Positions 6,140 to 39,309 of a stretch of 41,274 bases of DNA are shown here, piece by piece. Position numbers and translations under genes: made by a program. The notes under the pieces were generated by a model that was given only the letters and a program-made list of their open reading frames with translations, did not search any database and was not told the DNA's origin. Each line of letters opens with the position of its first letter. Position 1 is the stretch's first letter. The DNA lies in assembly GCA_023136775.1 (NCBI GenBank), contig JAGLQO010000014.1, positions 1 to 41,274 of the forward strand. The letters are read 5' to 3'. This DNA is from Candidatus Pacearchaeota archaeon. Its GTDB lineage: Archaea; Nanobdellota; Nanobdellia; Pacearchaeales; GW2011-AR1.

Positions 6140-6445
6140 TTAATTTTTTTCATTAAATATAGTAACTCTTCTTTTTCTTATCAATCTTATAATCTGATAA
6201 ATTAATATTCCAAAAACCCCACCAACCAACATTCCCAAAATAGAAAATAAAATTATCATAACTGGAATAAGAACTATGATTATTAATCCTATCTCATTGA
6301 CATTCATTGGGACCCAAATTTTAATAACATAAAAAATAGAAATAATAATTCCAACAATTGCCCCACTAATTCCACCAAGCAAATTCTTTCCAATTATCTT
6401 AAGTATATTTTTAAATTTCATTTCATTACCAACTGAAAATTTCAC
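6140..6445 (-). CDS. Small membrane protein, two to three TM helices
   Basis: A 101-residue protein with glycine-rich hydrophobic segments at about 20-42, 52-70 and 72-90, and a basic C-terminus (RLIRKRRV). The start shown is a GTG that overlaps the stop of the GTPase gene (GTGA coupling). An ATG eight codons downstream (6421) is equally possible and would place the palindrome at 6435-6460 between the genes. Function is unknown. Confidence 0.5.
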   Translation of the reverse strand: MKFSVGNEMKFKNILKIIGKNLLGGISGAIVGIIISIFYVIKIWVPMNVNEIGLIIIVLIPVMIILFSILGMLVGGVFGILIYQIIRLIRKRRVTIFNEKN

Positions 6446-6460
6446 TTAAGTGAAATTTTC
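6435..6460. repeat. 26-bp perfect palindrome at a gene junction
   Basis: GAAAATTTCACTT is followed by its exact reverse complement. It covers the last codons of the GTPase and the GTG start of the membrane protein. As RNA it forms a 12-13 bp hairpin that would sequester the GTG start. Confidence 0.6.
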
Positions 6461-7191
6461 CCCTTCTGCCAATCATCAATTATTTTGATAGCAGTTCGAT
6501 TTTCATCAATTTTCCCACCCTTAACCAAAAATCCCTTCGCTTTTCCAATACTTTCAAGTAATTCGTAAGATGTATCCCCGCTGGCGTTATAATATTTCTC
6601 AAGAGTCCCAGGTTTTTTCGCCATCAAAAATTCAATAGTATCAATTGCAACCTTCTCAGGATTTCGGATTTTATGCGGATTTTTAGAAGCCGTAAGTCCA
6701 AGCTTTGTCTTCTTGTCCCCAAACGGAATCACACCAGGCGAATCTAAATATCGAATATTCCCAACACGAATCCACTGAGTTTCTTTTGTCGTTCCAGAAA
6801 CCGAACTAACTTTAGCATTAGCCTTCGGAGCTAATAAATTAATCAAAGTAGATTTTCCAATATTCGGATAACCAACAACACCAACACGAAGACTATCCCG
6901 ACCCCAATTATCAGCCATATTTTTAATAGTAGATTTCAAATTCCCAACCCCAATTTTCTTCGCAGCCGAAACAAACAAAGCCCGAGGATATTCTTTCTTT
7001 AAAACATCAATTTCTTTTCGATTTATCAAATCACTTTTATTAAAAACCACAATCAATCTCTTCCCCTTCATATTCTCAACCTTATTAATAATTTCACTAT
7101 TTTGAGAAATCTCAGGCATCCGAGCATCTACTAAAAGTAAAATCACATCACTATTCCGAAGAACATTAAGCACGACAGGCCAAAATCCCAT
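6442..7191 (-). CDS. Circularly permuted GTPase, YlqF/RbgA/Nog-like
   Basis: A ribosome-assembly type GTPase. The 249-residue protein shows the permuted order G4 NKSD (about 51-54), G5 SAAK, then G1 GYPNIGKST (about 107-115), G2 threonines in SGTTKETQ and G3 DSPG (about 149-152). A C-terminal helical region ends DDWQKGKISL, which is closely echoed in the second permuted GTPase at 12556-13626 (DWQTGKIKV). A TATA-like CTTTATAAT lies about 27 nt upstream of the ATG. Assignment to a specific subunit step is not possible. Confidence 0.88.
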   Translation of the reverse strand: MGFWPVVLNVLRNSDVILLLVDARMPEISQNSEIINKVENMKGKRLIVVFNKSDLINRKEIDVLKKEYPRALFVSAAKKIGVGNLKSTIKNMADNWGRDSLRVGVVGYPNIGKSTLINLLAPKANAKVSSVSGTTKETQWIRVGNIRYLDSPGVIPFGDKKTKLGLTASKNPHKIRNPEKVAIDTIEFLMAKKPGTLEKYYNASGDTSYELLESIGKAKGFLVKGGKIDENRTAIKIIDDWQKGKISLK

Positions 7192-7290
7192 AACAATAAC
7201 AGTCCAATAAGAATTATAAAGTTATCCAAGAAATATTCGCACCACTCTTTATAAAAAATATTTTAGTTAAACAAATAGGAGGTAGTAATA

Positions 7291-7368
7291 ATGGAAGAAG
7301 AATGCAAAGAAGGTGAAAAGGACTGCTGTCCAAAATGCAAATGCAAACCCTGCAAATGCAAAGAATAA
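7291..7368 (+). CDS. 25-residue cysteine-rich metallothionein-like peptide
   Basis: Twenty-six codons including the stop. Seven of 25 residues are cysteine (C5, C12, C13, C16, C18, C21, C23), arranged CC-x2-C-x-C-x2-C-x-C, and most of the rest are Lys or Glu. This is a metal-thiolate pattern like the metallothioneins, but far smaller than usual. A strong Shine-Dalgarno sequence (AGGAGGT, 7278-7284) precedes the ATG at normal spacing, and a TATA box TTTATAAAA lies near 7249-7257. Its own promoter and ribosome binding site argue for a real gene. The metal and role are unknown. Confidence 0.65.
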   Translation: MEEECKEGEKDCCPKCKCKPCKCKE

Positions 7369-7411
7369 AATCACCCCTTGAAAAATAAAAAGGGAAAATA
7401 AAAAAAGAAAA

Positions 7412-7425: not shown

Positions 7426-7476
7426 ATTAATTATCTGTTTGACTTCTAAAAGTTACATAACAACACTCTGAACCAC

Positions 7477-7601
7477 GGGCGAAATTAAATTTCGCCCCAT
7501 TAAATCGAAAACGATGGAATTCACTTCCATAGGCTTTTCGGAATCTAGGGCTTCTTTCGAAGACCAACCTGACGATTTTTTTCACCAGAAAAAAATGTCA
7601 A
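7477..7601 (+). ncRNA. Structured RNA element, copy 2
   Basis: Four stems in the common order: GGGCGAAATT/AATTTCGCCC (7477-7497); P1 CGAAAA/TTTTCG (7506-7511, 7535-7540) around an inner stem ATGGAA/TTCCAT; then GGAATCTA. P3 is GGGCTTC-TTTC-GAAGACC (7548-7565). CTGACGA (7569-7575) is followed by TTTTTTTC-ACCA-GAAAAAAA and TGTCAA, with TGAC pairing to GTCA. All stems differ in sequence from the other copies but keep pairing. The TCTG/GTAAG loop is absent here. The upstream ATTACATAACA-like segment is shared with 39042-39052. The element ends next to the stop codon of the convergent SIMPL gene. Confidence 0.6.
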
Positions 7602-7604
7602 TGT

Positions 7605-8357
7605 TTATCTTATTTCATAAACTACAGAGATTCTACCAGTGATTTCTCTTTCTCCAATTTGAATTGAAGTACTTTCTTTGAAATCATTTACAGCAACTCC
7701 AGCTTCCATCATATCATCACCCCCATAAGCTCTCCACGGTTGATACTCAAAATTAGTTTCACTAACAGATACTAATTTACCAAGTTGTCCACCAACTCCC
7801 GAAACAATAGCATTAGCTTTTAATCTAGCATCATTCCCAGCTAACTCCAAAGCCTGTGCCTTATATTTACTCTCCAATTCAGGACTCAATTCAAAGTTGA
7901 TATATCTAAGTAACGCTCCAGCATCAACCCCAGCATCAACAATTGGTCCCAATTCGGGTTGCGATTCAGCGTCGAATTTAACACGGATATTATGCGTTGC
8001 CTTAAACCCAAGAGATTCTCTCCCATCTTCTGTCCAATCAAATTCTTCGTAAATATTAAAGTTCAAAGTTTCAATATCTTTTCGTTCAAAACCCAATCCC
8101 ATCAAAGAGTCAACGGCATCAGTCACAATTTCAGCATTCTCATCCTTAGCTTCTTTTGACGTATTCCCAGTGGTTTCAACAGCAAAATTAATCACAACAA
8201 TATCAGGCATAACAGAAATAACAGCCTCCCCTTGAGAGTTTATAGTTTTTTTATCCTCAAAAGATATATTAGCAGAGATTATAAAAATCAGCGCTAAAAC
8301 AATAACAGCAGCAATAATCATCCCAGTAATTTTAATTGAATTATCTATTTTTTTCAT
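7605..8357 (-). CDS. SIMPL-domain (DUF541) exported protein
   Basis: A 250-residue protein with a basic start, an N-terminal transmembrane anchor or signal (about 10-30) and a SIMPL domain: GEAVISVMPDIVVINFAVET, then KDIETLNFNIYEEFDW, and a final SIQIGEREITGRISVVYEI strand. The domain is expected outside the membrane. A strong Shine-Dalgarno AAAGGAGGA precedes the ATG. Directly upstream on the same strand is a membrane-anchored winged-helix protein that may control it. The molecular role of SIMPL proteins in archaea is not established. Confidence 0.85.
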   Translation of the reverse strand: MKKIDNSIKITGMIIAAVIVLALIFIISANISFEDKKTINSQGEAVISVMPDIVVINFAVETTGNTSKEAKDENAEIVTDAVDSLMGLGFERKDIETLNFNIYEEFDWTEDGRESLGFKATHNIRVKFDAESQPELGPIVDAGVDAGALLRYINFELSPELESKYKAQALELAGNDARLKANAIVSGVGGQLGKLVSVSETNFEYQPWRAYGGDDMMEAGVAVNDFKESTSIQIGEREITGRISVVYEIR

Positions 8358-28431: not shown

Positions 28432-28555
28432 GGGGATTTCAAAGAAATTCCCTCAATAAATCAGACCATCTGCGACAAAGTCGGTAAGTGGTCTGGAATC
28501 TAAAATCCTGTGTGGATTTTCTCTGACGATTTTTGCGACCACGCAAAAATGTCAA
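28432..28555 (+). ncRNA. Structured RNA element, copy 3 (cleanest)
   Basis: Hairpin 1 is GGGGATTTC-AAA-GAAATTCCC and the linker TCAATAAAT. P1 is CAGACCA (28462-28468) with TGGTCTG (28489-28495). The internal loop is TCTG/GTAAG, and P2 is CGAC-AAA-GTCG. GGAATCT follows, then P3 AAAATCC-TGTGT-GGATTTT (28502-28520). CTGACGA (28523-28529) leads to TTTTTGCG-ACCA-CGCAAAAA and TGTCAAT, with TGAC pairing to GTCA. Nearly every nucleotide is paired or belongs to a motif shared with other copies. It ends 9 nt from the 3' end of tRNA-Gly on the opposite strand. Confidence 0.7.
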
Positions 28556-28563
28556 TATCTATA

Positions 28564-28634
28564 TGCGAAATGGGAGAATCGAACTCCCGCATTATCGTTG
28601 GCAACGATACATTGTACCACTCAATCAATCTCGC
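28564..28634 (-). tRNA. tRNA-Gly (GCC)
   Basis: Cloverleaf on the minus strand. Acceptor GCGAGAT / ATTTCGC with one G-T pair, D arm ATTG-AGTGGTA-CAAT, anticodon arm TATCG-TTGCCAA-CGATA with anticodon GCC, T arm GGGAG-TTCGATT-CTCCC, discriminator A. CCA is not encoded and no intron is present. Confidence 0.95.
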
Positions 28635-33337: not shown

Positions 33338-33960
33338 AACCTGTAATAATAATTAATATGAAAACCTATAATCAGGGAAGTAAGGCTATTAATTTGGCAA
33401 AGAAAATTTCTGAAGTGGATTCAAAAATTATAATTGGAGTTCAACCAACTAATATTTTTCAAATAAGCAAGTTAGTAAAAAATCCAATATATTCTGAACA
33501 TGTCGATTTTCAAGAAACTGGAAGAAACACTGGCTATATTTTGCCAGAAGCTGTGAAGGCAAGTGGAGCTAAGGGAGTTTTTCTAAACCACAGCGAACAT
33601 AGACTTGATTTAGAAACAATAAAAAAAACTGCTAAACGATGTAAAAAATTAAAATTAAAAGTTGGAATCTTTGCTAAAGATTTGAATCAAGCAATTGAAT
33701 TAAAAAAATTAAAACCAGAATATTTAATGATAGAGCCTCCAGAATTAGTAGCTGGTAAAATTTCCGTAAGCAAAGCAAAGCCAAAGCTAATTGCAGAAAT
33801 TGGAAAAAAATTAAAGTATCCGTTTATTGTCGGGGCTGGAATAAAAAATAGTGAAGATTTAAAAATTGCTGTTAAACTCGGGAGCTGCGGAATTGCTATT
33901 AGTTCAGCAATCACAACTGCGAAAAATCCTAAAAAAGTTTTAAAGGGGTTAATCAGCTAA
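33334..33960 (+). CDS. tpiA: Triosephosphate isomerase, archaeal type
   Basis: A 208-residue protein, shorter than the bacterial 250. NMK (8-10) gives the catalytic lysine, LNHSEHR (84-90) the histidine and IEPPE (133-137) the glutamate. VGAGIKN is the phosphate loop. The start is ATG 33334, which overlaps the fba stop (ATGA). An upstream in-frame TTG at 33325 is less likely. Confidence 0.92.
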   Translation: MKPVIIINMKTYNQGSKAINLAKKISEVDSKIIIGVQPTNIFQISKLVKNPIYSEHVDFQETGRNTGYILPEAVKASGAKGVFLNHSEHRLDLETIKKTAKRCKKLKLKVGIFAKDLNQAIELKKLKPEYLMIEPPELVAGKISVSKAKPKLIAEIGKKLKYPFIVGAGIKNSEDLKIAVKLGSCGIAISSAITTAKNPKKVLKGLIS

Positions 33961-34391
33961 TGGAAGAAAAAATATTATTAAATATTTTGCATGAAGCTCA
34001 AGACAAACATGGATATTTATCCGAAGAAGTTTTAAAAAAAATAAGCAAGAAACATCAAATCCCAATTTCTAGACTTTATGGAATTATTACTTTTCATACA
34101 ATGTTTAGAGTAAAAAAACAGGGGAAACATATTCTGGAATTATGTGGAAGCCCTAGCTGTCTATTAAATGGGGCTAGAGAAATAGAAAGATTTATTGAAA
34201 AAGAATTAAATGTTGAAATCGGCGAAACAACAAAAGATAAGAAATTTTCAGTTTACAAAACTTCTTGCATAGGATGTTGCGATGGGGCTCCTGCAATGTT
34301 AATCGACGGAAAGCCATATGTAAATCTTACAATTAAAAGAATTAAAGAAATATTAAAGGAGTTAAAAAATGCAAGTACTAAGAGAAACTAA
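33960..34391 (+). CDS. hydC: NuoE/HydC-like [2Fe-2S] subunit
   Basis: A 143-residue protein with the helical NuoE N-terminus and a thioredoxin-like [2Fe-2S] domain whose ligands are C62, C67 (ELCGSPSC) and C103, C107 (SCIGCCDGAPAM). Passes electrons between the flavin subunit and the hydrogenase subunit. The ATG shares a base with the tpiA stop (TAATG), and its 3' end overlaps hydB by 23 nt. That is tight coupling of glycolysis with the hydrogenase. Confidence 0.9.
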   Translation: MEEKILLNILHEAQDKHGYLSEEVLKKISKKHQIPISRLYGIITFHTMFRVKKQGKHILELCGSPSCLLNGAREIERFIEKELNVEIGETTKDKKFSVYKTSCIGCCDGAPAMLIDGKPYVNLTIKRIKEILKELKNASTKRN

Positions 34392-35490
34392 TTTACAAGG
34401 TTTAGCTTTGGCAAAAAAATTAGGAAAAAAAGGAACATTAGAGCTTCTTGCAAAGAGAGGCTTAGTTGGAAGAGGAGGAGCTAGCTTCCCAACTCATAAA
34501 AAGTGGGAAAGAGCGTTGTCTGTAAAAACTAATGAGAGATTTCTTATTTGCAATGCTGATGAAGGAGAGCCTGGAACTTTTAAAGATAAATTTTTAATTA
34601 AAAATAATTCAGAGACTCTTATTGAGGGTATACTTATAGCAGCTTTTGTACTTGATGCAAAAAGATGTTTTATTTATCTTAGAGCCGAGTATGATAGCCT
34701 TCGATTAGAGTTAGAAAAAATAATAAAAAAGGTTCTGAAAAAATCTAAAATGAAAGTTTCAATAGAAATCGTAAGAGGAGCTGGTGCTTATGTATGCGGA
34801 GAAGAAACAGCTATCATACAATCTATCATGGGACGAAGAGGCCAACCAATGGAAAAACCACCTTACCCTACAATCAAAGGACTTTGGGGAAAACCAACCG
34901 TTTTGAATAACGTAACAACATTAACTTGTGTTCCTCAAGCTTTGCTTTATGAAGATTGGAATCCAAATTATAGACTGTTTTCTATATCTGGAGAAGTCGA
35001 ACATCCAGGAGTATACGAATGGGAATTAGGCGTTAAAATGTCAACAATTTTAGGAACTGTAAAACCAAAAGGAAAAATGAAAGCAATGTCATTTGGATGC
35101 TTCGGAGGAATAATGCCAGTTTACAAATCTAATAGAGTTTCTCCAGCTTTAATATGCGATAAAAATTGCCATCACGGAGCATATAGTTTAATTTTTGTCG
35201 GGGAGAAAAAAAATATAGTAGACGTTAACTTAAGTATGGCTAAATTTTATACCTATGAATCCTGTGGGAAATGTACGCCATGTAGAGAGGGAACTATTCG
35301 TTTAGTCGAACTATTAAAAAAAATAAAGAGCGGACAAGCCACAAATAAAGATTTGAAATTGTTAAAAGAATTAGCTAATCACATCCAAGAAACTAGCCTG
35401 TGTGGGCTCGGGGCTTCGTGCGGAAATCATATATTGACGGGAATGAAAAATTTCAAAAAAGATTACAAGGGGTTTATCAAGAAAAAATGA
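34369..35490 (+). CDS. hydB: NuoF/HydB-like flavin (NADH) subunit
   Basis: A 373-residue protein with GRGGASFPTHKKW (FMN), NADEGEPGTFKD (NADH), GAGAYVCGEETA and a C-terminal [4Fe-4S] site SCGKCTPC plus LCGLGASCG. It is only the NuoF core: the extra N-terminal thioredoxin-like and C-terminal 2x[4Fe-4S] ferredoxin domains of large bifurcating HydB proteins are absent. A Shine-Dalgarno AAAGGAG sits upstream inside hydC. Expected to oxidise NADH from GAPDH. Confidence 0.92.
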   Translation: MQVLRETNLQGLALAKKLGKKGTLELLAKRGLVGRGGASFPTHKKWERALSVKTNERFLICNADEGEPGTFKDKFLIKNNSETLIEGILIAAFVLDAKRCFIYLRAEYDSLRLELEKIIKKVLKKSKMKVSIEIVRGAGAYVCGEETAIIQSIMGRRGQPMEKPPYPTIKGLWGKPTVLNNVTTLTCVPQALLYEDWNPNYRLFSISGEVEHPGVYEWELGVKMSTILGTVKPKGKMKAMSFGCFGGIMPVYKSNRVSPALICDKNCHHGAYSLIFVGEKKNIVDVNLSMAKFYTYESCGKCTPCREGTIRLVELLKKIKSGQATNKDLKLLKELANHIQETSLCGLGASCGNHILTGMKNFKKDYKGFIKKK

Positions 35491-37154
35491 AAATTAAATT
35501 AAACGGTAAACATTTAGAAGTAAATGGAAATAAAACCATATTGGATATTTGCAAAGATAATGGAATAAAAATTCCAACACTTTGTTATCACAAAAATTTA
35601 TTTCCAGAAGCTAGATGTAGACTTTGCTTAGTAGAACTCAATGGAAAACTAGTAACTTCATGTTCTACAAAACCCATTGAAGGATGCAAAATAGTTACAA
35701 AAACAAAAAAAATATTAAAGGCCAGAAAAATGAATATGGAGTTAATGAGTCCAGGAATTAGTATGGATAAATTGGGAAATGATTTTGAAGCTAGAAAAAT
35801 ATACGAAGAAGTTGGATTAGATAATGAGCGATTTAAGCCAAGAAAAAATTACAAAGTAGAACTTGGAGATTCTTTAGTTAGAGATAATAATAAATGTGTA
35901 AATTGTGGAAGGTGTGTTCAGGTTTGTTCGAAAGTTCAAGAAGTTCATGCAATTGATTTTGCAAGTAGAGCACATAACGAACACGTAACCCCATATTGTG
36001 AAAAAACATTAGCTGGTGTCGCATGTATACGTTGTGGGCAATGTTTAATTAATTGTCCAGTTGGGGCGATTACAGAAGTTTCTCATCTTGGAAAAGTAGA
36101 AACTGCCTTAAAAAATAAAAAGAAACAAGTTATTGTGCAAACTGCCCCGTCAATTAGGGCAGCTCTTGGAGAATTATTCGACATGAAAACAGGAAGTTTA
36201 GTTACAGGAAAAATGGTCACAGCTCTTAGACAATGCGGATTCGATAAAATATTTGATGTTGATTTGGGAGCCGATATGACAATCATGGAAGAATCAGCAG
36301 AATTAGTCAGAAGAATAAAATCAAATGAAACACTTCCCTTAATTACTACCTGTTGTCCTGCTTGGATTTTAATGATGGAACAATCTTTCCCCGAATTAAT
36401 TCCAAATATGTCAACCTGCAAAAGTCCTCATGAAATGCTTGGAGCTTTAATTAAAAGTTATTATGCCAAAAAGGCGGGAATTGATTCAAAAGATATAATT
36501 GTTGTGAGCATAATGCCATGTGTAGCCAAAAAATTCGAATCAACTAGACCAGAACTTTATACAGATGTTGATTATGTTTTAACAACTAGGGAACTTGGAA
36601 GATTGATTAAAAAAAGAAATATAGATTTCGCAAATTTACCTGATTCTGAATTTGATCCTACGCTTGGAATTTCAACTGGAGCTGGAGATATTTTTGGAAC
36701 GGCTGGAGGAGTAATGGAAGCGGCTTTGAGAACCACTTACGAAGTGGTTACAAAAAAGAAATTGAAAAAAGTTGAATTTAAAAATTTGCATGAGTTTAAA
36801 GGAATTAAAGAAGGTTCAATAAAACTTAGGAATAAAACAATTCGTTACGCTTGTGCAAATGGCGGGGCAAATATTAGAGAATTATTAAAGCATAAGGATG
36901 ATTATGATTTTATTGAAATGATGGCATGTCCCGGTGGATGTATTGGCGGAGGAGGACAGCCAATTTATTTTGACGACGAAACTCTAAAACTTAGAAGTAA
37001 AGCTCTCTATAAACAAGATTCAAAAAAAGAACTTAGAAAATCTCATGAAAACCCAATTGTAAAAGAAATCTACAAAAAATGTCTTGGAGAACCAGGAAGT
37101 AAAAAAGCGAAAAAATTTCTCCATACAAAATATAAAAAAAGGAGTTGCTTTTAA
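35487..37154 (+). CDS. hydA: [FeFe]-hydrogenase catalytic subunit
   Basis: A 555-residue protein. The N-terminal [2Fe-2S] domain (C33, C44, C47, C59) is followed by two [4Fe-4S] motifs (C137/C140/C143/C147 and C180/C183/C186/C190). The H-cluster motifs are L1 TTCCPAW (287-293), L2 MPCVAKKFE (343-351) and L3 EMMACPGGCIGGGGQP (477-492). All cluster-binding and proton-relay cysteines are present, so it should be catalytically competent. The His-Cys3 [4Fe-4S] site expected at about 85-105 has lost its ligands. The start is ATG 35487, overlapping the hydB stop. Maturases HydE/F/G are not in the window. Confidence 0.95.
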   Translation: MKIKLNGKHLEVNGNKTILDICKDNGIKIPTLCYHKNLFPEARCRLCLVELNGKLVTSCSTKPIEGCKIVTKTKKILKARKMNMELMSPGISMDKLGNDFEARKIYEEVGLDNERFKPRKNYKVELGDSLVRDNNKCVNCGRCVQVCSKVQEVHAIDFASRAHNEHVTPYCEKTLAGVACIRCGQCLINCPVGAITEVSHLGKVETALKNKKKQVIVQTAPSIRAALGELFDMKTGSLVTGKMVTALRQCGFDKIFDVDLGADMTIMEESAELVRRIKSNETLPLITTCCPAWILMMEQSFPELIPNMSTCKSPHEMLGALIKSYYAKKAGIDSKDIIVVSIMPCVAKKFESTRPELYTDVDYVLTTRELGRLIKKRNIDFANLPDSEFDPTLGISTGAGDIFGTAGGVMEAALRTTYEVVTKKKLKKVEFKNLHEFKGIKEGSIKLRNKTIRYACANGGANIRELLKHKDDYDFIEMMACPGGCIGGGGQPIYFDDETLKLRSKALYKQDSKKELRKSHENPIVKEIYKKCLGEPGSKKAKKFLHTKYKKRSCF

Positions 37155-39065: not shown

Positions 39066-39272
39066 GGGAATTTGAAACAAATTCCCTTAATATATCGGAC
39101 CAGTCTGCGGCGTGGGTCTGCCCCAACCAATTTAATAGACGATAAATATGTGAGGGTGCGACGGTAAGCGGTCCGGAAAATGTAGTCCTGTGTGGACTAC
39201 CAAACCCTGACGATTTTTCGCTGCTTCGCAAAGTGGTGTACTGGGTGAGTATGAACCAGAAAAAAATGTCAA
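39066..39272 (+). ncRNA. Structured RNA element, copy 4 (with inserted hairpin)
   Basis: Hairpin 1 is GGGAATTT/AAATTCCC (39066-39086) and the linker TTAATATAT. P1 is CGGACC (39096-39101) with GGTCCG (39170-39175). The internal loop is TCTG/GTAAG. The inner stem is enlarged by the module at 39120-39159, which also occurs at 3691-3726. P3 is GTAGTCC-TGTGT-GGACTAC (39182-39200). CTGACGA (39207-39213) opens a longer final stem that closes with AAAAAAATGTCAA. It sits between the HD gene and the rpoE1 promoter, and ends before that TATA box, so it is not an rpoE1 leader. ATTACATAAC at 39041-39050 is shared with copy 2. Confidence 0.65.
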
Positions 39273-39279
39273 CCCATAT

Positions 39280-39290
39280 CTTTTTAAATG
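39280..39290 (+). promoter_or_regulatory. TATA box of the rpoE1 operon
   Basis: CTTTTTAAATG about 25 nt upstream of the rpoE1 ATG, consistent with a leaderless operon mRNA. Confidence 0.5.
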
Positions 39291-39309
39291 AAATTTTTCT
39301 CAATAGATT

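Follow-up and report, generated by a model that had tools for sequence, protein, structure and literature searches.

A probable small gene for a 25-residue metallothionein-like peptide in a Pacearchaeota genome

The fungal family I metallothioneins are about 25 residues long and carry Ser/Gly-rich spacers between their Cys residues, whose spacing differs from that of the archaeal peptide described here. To our knowledge, metallothioneins have hardly been recorded from archaea. Their absence has been reported for one metal-tolerant archaeon (PMC3407056), and the papers searched nowhere name metallothioneins together with DPANN or Woesearchaeota. The archaeal peptide, MEEECKEGEKDCCPKCKCKPCKCKE, is encoded by an unannotated open reading frame (ORF) in a window of 41,274 nucleotides, i.e. 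the whole stretch of DNA that was analysed, which is one complete contig (JAGLQO010000014.1, GenBank assembly GCA_023136775.1) of the 1.2-Mb genome, in 38 contigs, of a Candidatus Pacearchaeota archaeon. This ORF is probably a new small gene with a metallothionein-like product and a restricted distribution.

A Cys-rich ORF and its expression signals

With Cys at 7 of its 25 residues, the window peptide contains one CC, two CxxC and two CxC and lacks F, W, Y, L, I and V altogether, Met1 being its sole residue of aromatic or aliphatic type. It is rich in Lys and Glu. The N-terminal half uses varied codons and both acidic and basic residues, and the C-terminal half is encoded by a direct repeat of 12 nt, TGCAAATGCAAA-CCC-TGCAAATGCAAA. 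An earlier note on this DNA, made from the sequence alone, had given the length, the Cys count and the coordinates of the ORF, all of which are exact; the metallothionein-like composition that it proposed is borne out by the CC, CxxC and CxC motifs and by the near-lack of aromatic and aliphatic residues. In the general sense of a short, Cys-rich sequence with CC, CxC and CxxC and few or no aromatics, the peptide has the composition of a metallothionein.

Searches against Pfam, NCBIfam and PHROGs gave no profile match to the peptide, and phage and plasmid records gave none either; against PDB chains there was no match at E 10, a search in which 25 residues have little power. As for the bacterial metallothionein family PF02069, the peptide was unmatched in Pfam at E 10, its own genome was unmatched in a whole-genome family search, and no over-threshold match was found in 371 genomes of the phylum, with a positive Synechococcus control. 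The matches below the cut-off in the phylum were rejected because they are parts of other proteins, either tails with Cys or small domains of a metal-binding-like type. The C(P)XCG zinc fingers of archaea have two such motifs, and the peptide has one CPKC, followed by K, and no CXXCG. Judged by sequence, it lies outside PF02069, any Pfam, NCBIfam or PHROG family and the C(P)XCG group, and is a metallothionein by composition only.

The strong Shine-Dalgarno (SD) sequence and the TATA box that had been read in front of the ORF are both present: AGGAGGT stands 7 nt before the ATG, and TTTATAAA at -43 equals the consensus of the organism's own TATA matrix, which was built from 314 kb of this genome. 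Since TTTATAAA is palindromic, its strand was assigned via the spacing to the SD and the ATG. GGAGG sites similar to this SD are used by an S-layer-like gene (C34:60092) and by the SIMPL gene. TATA boxes of long ORFs in this genome peak at -30 to -26 before the ATG, and therefore most of its genes appear to be leaderless; the peptide transcript, by its more distant TATA box, would start near 7274-7278 and have a leader of ~15 nt with the SD at its extreme 5' end. In the predicted mRNA, the leader, the SD and the start region of the ORF are unpaired.

Such a pairing of signals is rare in this genome. Among 9858 ATGs in the 314 kb, 28 have an equally good TATA at -50 to -37 and 18 have a GGAGGT placed in the same way; both together are found at a single ATG, that of the peptide ORF, where 0.05 would be expected under independence. 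The ORF also has the top Cys fraction among 4121 small ORFs (434 kb) and is the sole Cys-rich one with GGAGG, and in 6 Mb of Markov-simulated DNA, with 73,303 small ORFs, not one reached 7 Cys together with 25% Cys. The earlier proposal that this is a credible short gene under a promoter of its own thus gains support from the TATA and SD signals, the Cys composition and the rarity tests, and the ORF is probably a real, unannotated gene.

Similar peptides in archaea and phages

Orthologues were sought in 56 relatives, by Cys pattern in 200 genomes of the order, in 371 of the phylum and in 378 of the class (with a two-sequence profile); none was found, the sole candidate being a peptide from genome G512, of the same class. 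In congeners, the orthologues of the neighbouring GTPase gene have no matching Cys-rich ORF alongside. The G512 peptide, METTCNNKDCKCSDCKCDNCDCGK, is the only credible archaeal relative. It shares 7 Cys (in 24 residues), the MExxC start and the KDC.CxxCKCxxCxC end with the window peptide, 12 of 24 residues being identical (50%, over a short stretch) in the alignment MExxC...KDC.CxxCKCxxCxC, with a BLASTP E of 0.001 for a single comparison; among 2000 composition-preserving shuffles, 8 score as high. It differs in having CxC for CC, another neighbourhood and no SD, and the TATA box read from the sequence before it, ATATAAAT at -29, is of the leaderless type.

Further candidates were rejected. 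The sequence MVNDCGCCGACRCGVCSCWCDSGECSC of a congener (G003), although preceded by GGAGG, is an out-of-frame reading of a 70-residue secreted Cys protein; the other CCxxCxCxxCxC matches in the 200 genomes of the order are nearly all CTG/CAG-type repeats in the wrong frame; and tblastn gave weak matches (E up to 0.5) from another seven genomes of the phylum, but these are pieces of longer proteins or start-less frames, L127 being a membrane-type protein of 80 residues with CSMCNCSPCKC. The CKCLDCKC matches (f20/g116) are the tail of an ordinary protein of ~120 residues, and among the genome-contig matches to CCxxCKCxxCKC are Cys proteins secreted by bacteria (Sumerlaeaceae, Rikenellaceae), which are not relatives. 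Separately, a conserved 35-residue Cys protein, M(A/G)KG(K/N)C..CGCGMC, is preceded by an SD in the genus and the family of the window's organism (G004:C2 (L132), L092, L093, L094); an SD pattern search did not find it in the window genome.

The same CxC core recurs in IMG/VR contigs as ultra-short ORFs, namely in 43 contigs with 32 distinct DNA sequences and 25 distinct peptides. These marine phage peptides span 14-36 residues (examples are MCKCKDCKCNPCKCK, MEEACKCDLCHCNPCKC and MCENPNCKCENCTCNPCKCTGRDCGC), and an SD-like stretch precedes 29 of the 32 distinct DNA sequences. Several identical peptides differ in synonymous codons, MCKCEVCQCDPCKCGDV being written four ways, which shows that selection acts on them as truly coding sequences. 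In ~17 contigs, the CxC ORF overlaps the 3' end of an IscU/NifU_N gene by ~8 nt, and an iron-sulphur (Fe-S) or metal role is suspected for these peptides, which likewise vary at synonymous positions and are therefore coding. Overlapping ORFs of the MCKCKDCKCNPCKCK type, with 14-19 residues and six Cys, were seen in L326, L332, L333, L338-L340 and L346-L348, and further contigs of this type are L351, L352, L355-L357, L363 and L364. The peptides MEEACKCDLCHCNPCKC, MCENPNCKCENCTCNPCKCTGRDCGC, MSCGECKCENCKCDPCKCPKND and MCKCEVCQCDPCKCGDV (L259, L311, L325, L331, L336, L353, L362 and others) come from four or more further phage gene contexts, which suggests that phages use mini-thioneins repeatedly. 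The longer members that were tested had no PHROG match, no Pfam match over threshold and no match to a phage record. When the window peptide is aligned with the phage peptides, some shuffles score as high, L311 being the exception. The phage peptides show that genuine genes of such size and pattern are possible, common descent with the window peptide being unproven at that length.

Weighing the readings

The reading favoured here, to which we assign a probability of roughly 0.58, is that of a real, separately promoted small gene whose product is a metallothionein-like thiolate metal buffer. TBP and TFB would bind TTTATAAA at 7248, transcription would begin at ~7276, and the ribosome would use the SD at the 5' end of the very short leader. 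The product would be a cytosolic peptide of 25 residues lacking a hydrophobic core, whose seven Cys, in CC, CxxC and CxC, would hold soft d10 ions, Cu(I) or Zn(II), as a thiolate cluster, so that the peptide would buffer or detoxify metal in metallothionein fashion; transcription, translation, metal binding and the buffering role are what we infer from the sequence. This reading is favoured because the pairing of TATA and SD is unique among the ATGs compared and the Cys fraction is both the highest found and unmatched in simulation, because G512 holds an independent 7-Cys peptide in another genus of the class, and because the SD-preceded phage peptides give a precedent. It is also favoured because fungal family I metallothioneins, with the same number of Cys, hold ~6 Cu(I) (PMC13107397).

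Several points weigh against it. No metal-handling gene lies near the peptide; the genes around it encode a GTPase, a SIMPL protein and a membrane helix-turn-helix protein. The relatives were located via Cys patterns (that of G512 by CKCxxCKC), so the shared spacing is partly built in. The palindromic TTTATAAA, being its own reverse complement, could serve the minus-strand GTPase gene from -64, a caveat tempered by the separate TATA-like TTTATAAT of that gene at -29. Finally, the 15 congeneric genomes hold no orthologue, at the syntenic GTPase locus or elsewhere. The earlier note had named a Cys spacing not conserved in relatives, along with the lack of a transcript, as what would refute the gene, and at this close range conservation does fail; what upholds the finding is its expression signals and its composition, and the gene seems to be recent or fast-turning-over and lineage-specific.

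The lack of an orthologue, the palindromic TATA and the direct repeat in the C-terminal half are also what would be seen if the ORF had arisen by chance between genes, in AT-rich DNA whose repeated TGCAAA hexamer reads as CKCK-P-CKCK, with the TATA serving the divergent GTPase gene. We consider this unlikely, however, given the joint placement of TATA and SD, a Cys content above everything in the simulation, the varied codons and charged residues of the N-terminal half, and the TATA-like site that the GTPase gene owns. A real peptide could also be a specific metal or Fe-S helper, a delivery or scaffold partner modelled on the phage peptides that overlap iscU: MCKCKDCKCNPCKCK and related peptides have CxxCxCxPCKC in common with the window peptide and are encoded behind iscU/NifU_N genes, and the window codes for an [FeFe]-hydrogenase and a NuoF-like protein, so Fe-S demand exists. 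Yet no Fe-S assembly gene adjoins the peptide ORF, and homology to the phage peptides is not established at this length by scores that, L311 apart, some shuffles match; we give this reading little credence. Far less probable still is a regulatory role, as a leader peptide or as a hairpin, in which the Cys codons, or a TGCA-palindrome stem, would sense cysteine or charged tRNA-Cys and control a downstream gene. The seven Cys codons are indeed bunched at the head of the transcript and a small stem forms inside the ORF, but this stem is no better than in shuffles (z -1.25), and the reading is improbable because no plus-strand gene follows before the opposing SIMPL gene.

Surroundings and comparison with known systems

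The peptide ORF sits in a gap of 413 nt between the GTPase and SIMPL genes, and there is thus room for a plus-strand gene (Table 1). The fold of 7276-7400 is not significant overall (z -1.46). The contig itself is archaeal, coding for an Rpb7/RpoE'-type polymerase subunit and ribosomal protein S24e; at 33960-37154, NuoE/NuoF-like proteins and an [FeFe]-hydrogenase (Fe_hyd_lg_C plus Fe_hyd_SSU) lie beside glycolytic genes. A different stretch, G000:C1:40001-80000 (L177, L178), looks bacterial, with many GGAGG sites and lipoprotein signals such as LASCATTEK, and is possibly a genome-bin contamination or a transfer.

Table 1. Features of the peptide locus and copies of the dispersed element in the window
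Feature	Position	Strand	Remarks
YlqF/RbgA-like GTPase gene	6442-7191	-	Divergent; GTPase domain by Pfam
TATA-like TTTATAAT	7213-7220	-	At -29 of the GTPase gene; score 5.08
TATA box TTTATAAA	7248-7255	+	At -43 from the peptide ATG; equals consensus from 120 own-genome promoters; score 9.45
SD AGGAGGT	7277-7283	+	7-nt spacer to ATG 7291
Cys-rich peptide ORF MEEECKEGEKDCCPKCKCKPCKCKE	7291-7368	+	25 residues; stop TAA 7366-7368
Small hairpin CCCTT...AAGGG	7375-7394	+	Right after the peptide stop; from fold of 7276-7400; no T-run behind it on +
Dispersed structured element	7440-7602	-	Left end (7440) approximate; hairpin core 7570-7600
SIMPL/DUF541 gene	7605-8357	-	Opposing
Other element copy	28482-28562
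Other element copy, partial	39255-39292

A structured RNA copy had been noted downstream of the peptide and possibly cotranscribed with it. It does prove to be one copy of a covarying element that is scattered through the genome, where it has at least 45 matches; Rfam gave no match, and the copy does not belong to the peptide gene. The hairpin core, TGACATTTTT..AAAAATCGTCA, begins 5 nt past the stop of the opposing SIMPL gene. Altogether, about a dozen copies have their core at -2 to 9 nt from the stop of a gene that reads toward the core. When 19 copies are aligned, the fold is better in the SIMPL-strand sense (-27.9 vs -23.0), with compensatory types at 20 pairs, and there is strong covariation in the hairpins of the element, which are GGGAATTT..AAATTCCC, a central stem around CTGCGAC..GTCGGTAAG, and TGACATTTTT-loop-AAAAATCGTCA. 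A functional link through cotranscription was rejected, as the copies are scattered and this one lies at the opposing gene; it runs antisense to the peptide gene and is independent of it. Elsewhere, the core of the element lies ~10 nt from the 3' end, at 28564, of a tRNA-Gly.

If real, the window peptide, which default gene calling would miss, would rank among the smallest metallothionein-like gene products and would point to tiny peptides as metal buffers in streamlined archaeal genomes. A separate system that can be tested directly is offered by the phage peptides whose genes overlap iscU. It is conceivable, though we hold it doubtful, that ultra-short CxC mini-thioneins (14-36 residues, with their own SD or TATA) are a widespread, overlooked gene class of small-genome archaea and marine phages that arises or moves repeatedly, the window peptide being an archaeal representative, a buffer or carrier of Cu(I)/Zn(II) or of iron for Fe-S assembly. 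Modest when it is taken alone, the interest of the window peptide grows with this wider set of tiny CxC peptides.

Likenesses to described systems are partial. Phage CxC peptides such as MCKCKDCKCNPCKCK and MEEACKCDLCHCNPCKC are, like the window peptide, ultra-short and SD-preceded and have the core C-x2-C-x-C-x-P-C-K-C, but they are phage-borne, often overlap iscU, mostly have six Cys and lack a CC pair. The C(P)XCG zinc-finger small proteins of Haloferax volcanii (PMC11241148) are likewise archaeal and very small and have Cys motifs with CP, whereas the window peptide has one Gly-less CPKC, seven Cys and two CxC. Bacterial metallothioneins of PF02069 (SmtA/BmtA) resemble it in being Cys-rich and in a presumed role in metal buffering, and differ in being about twice as long and in having a zinc-finger fold and His ligands. 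The fungal family I copper metallothioneins of Neurospora crassa and Agaricus bisporus are, as the window peptide is, very small, with seven Cys and no hydrophobic core; their spacers are rich in Ser and Gly, whereas those of the window peptide are rich in Lys and Glu.
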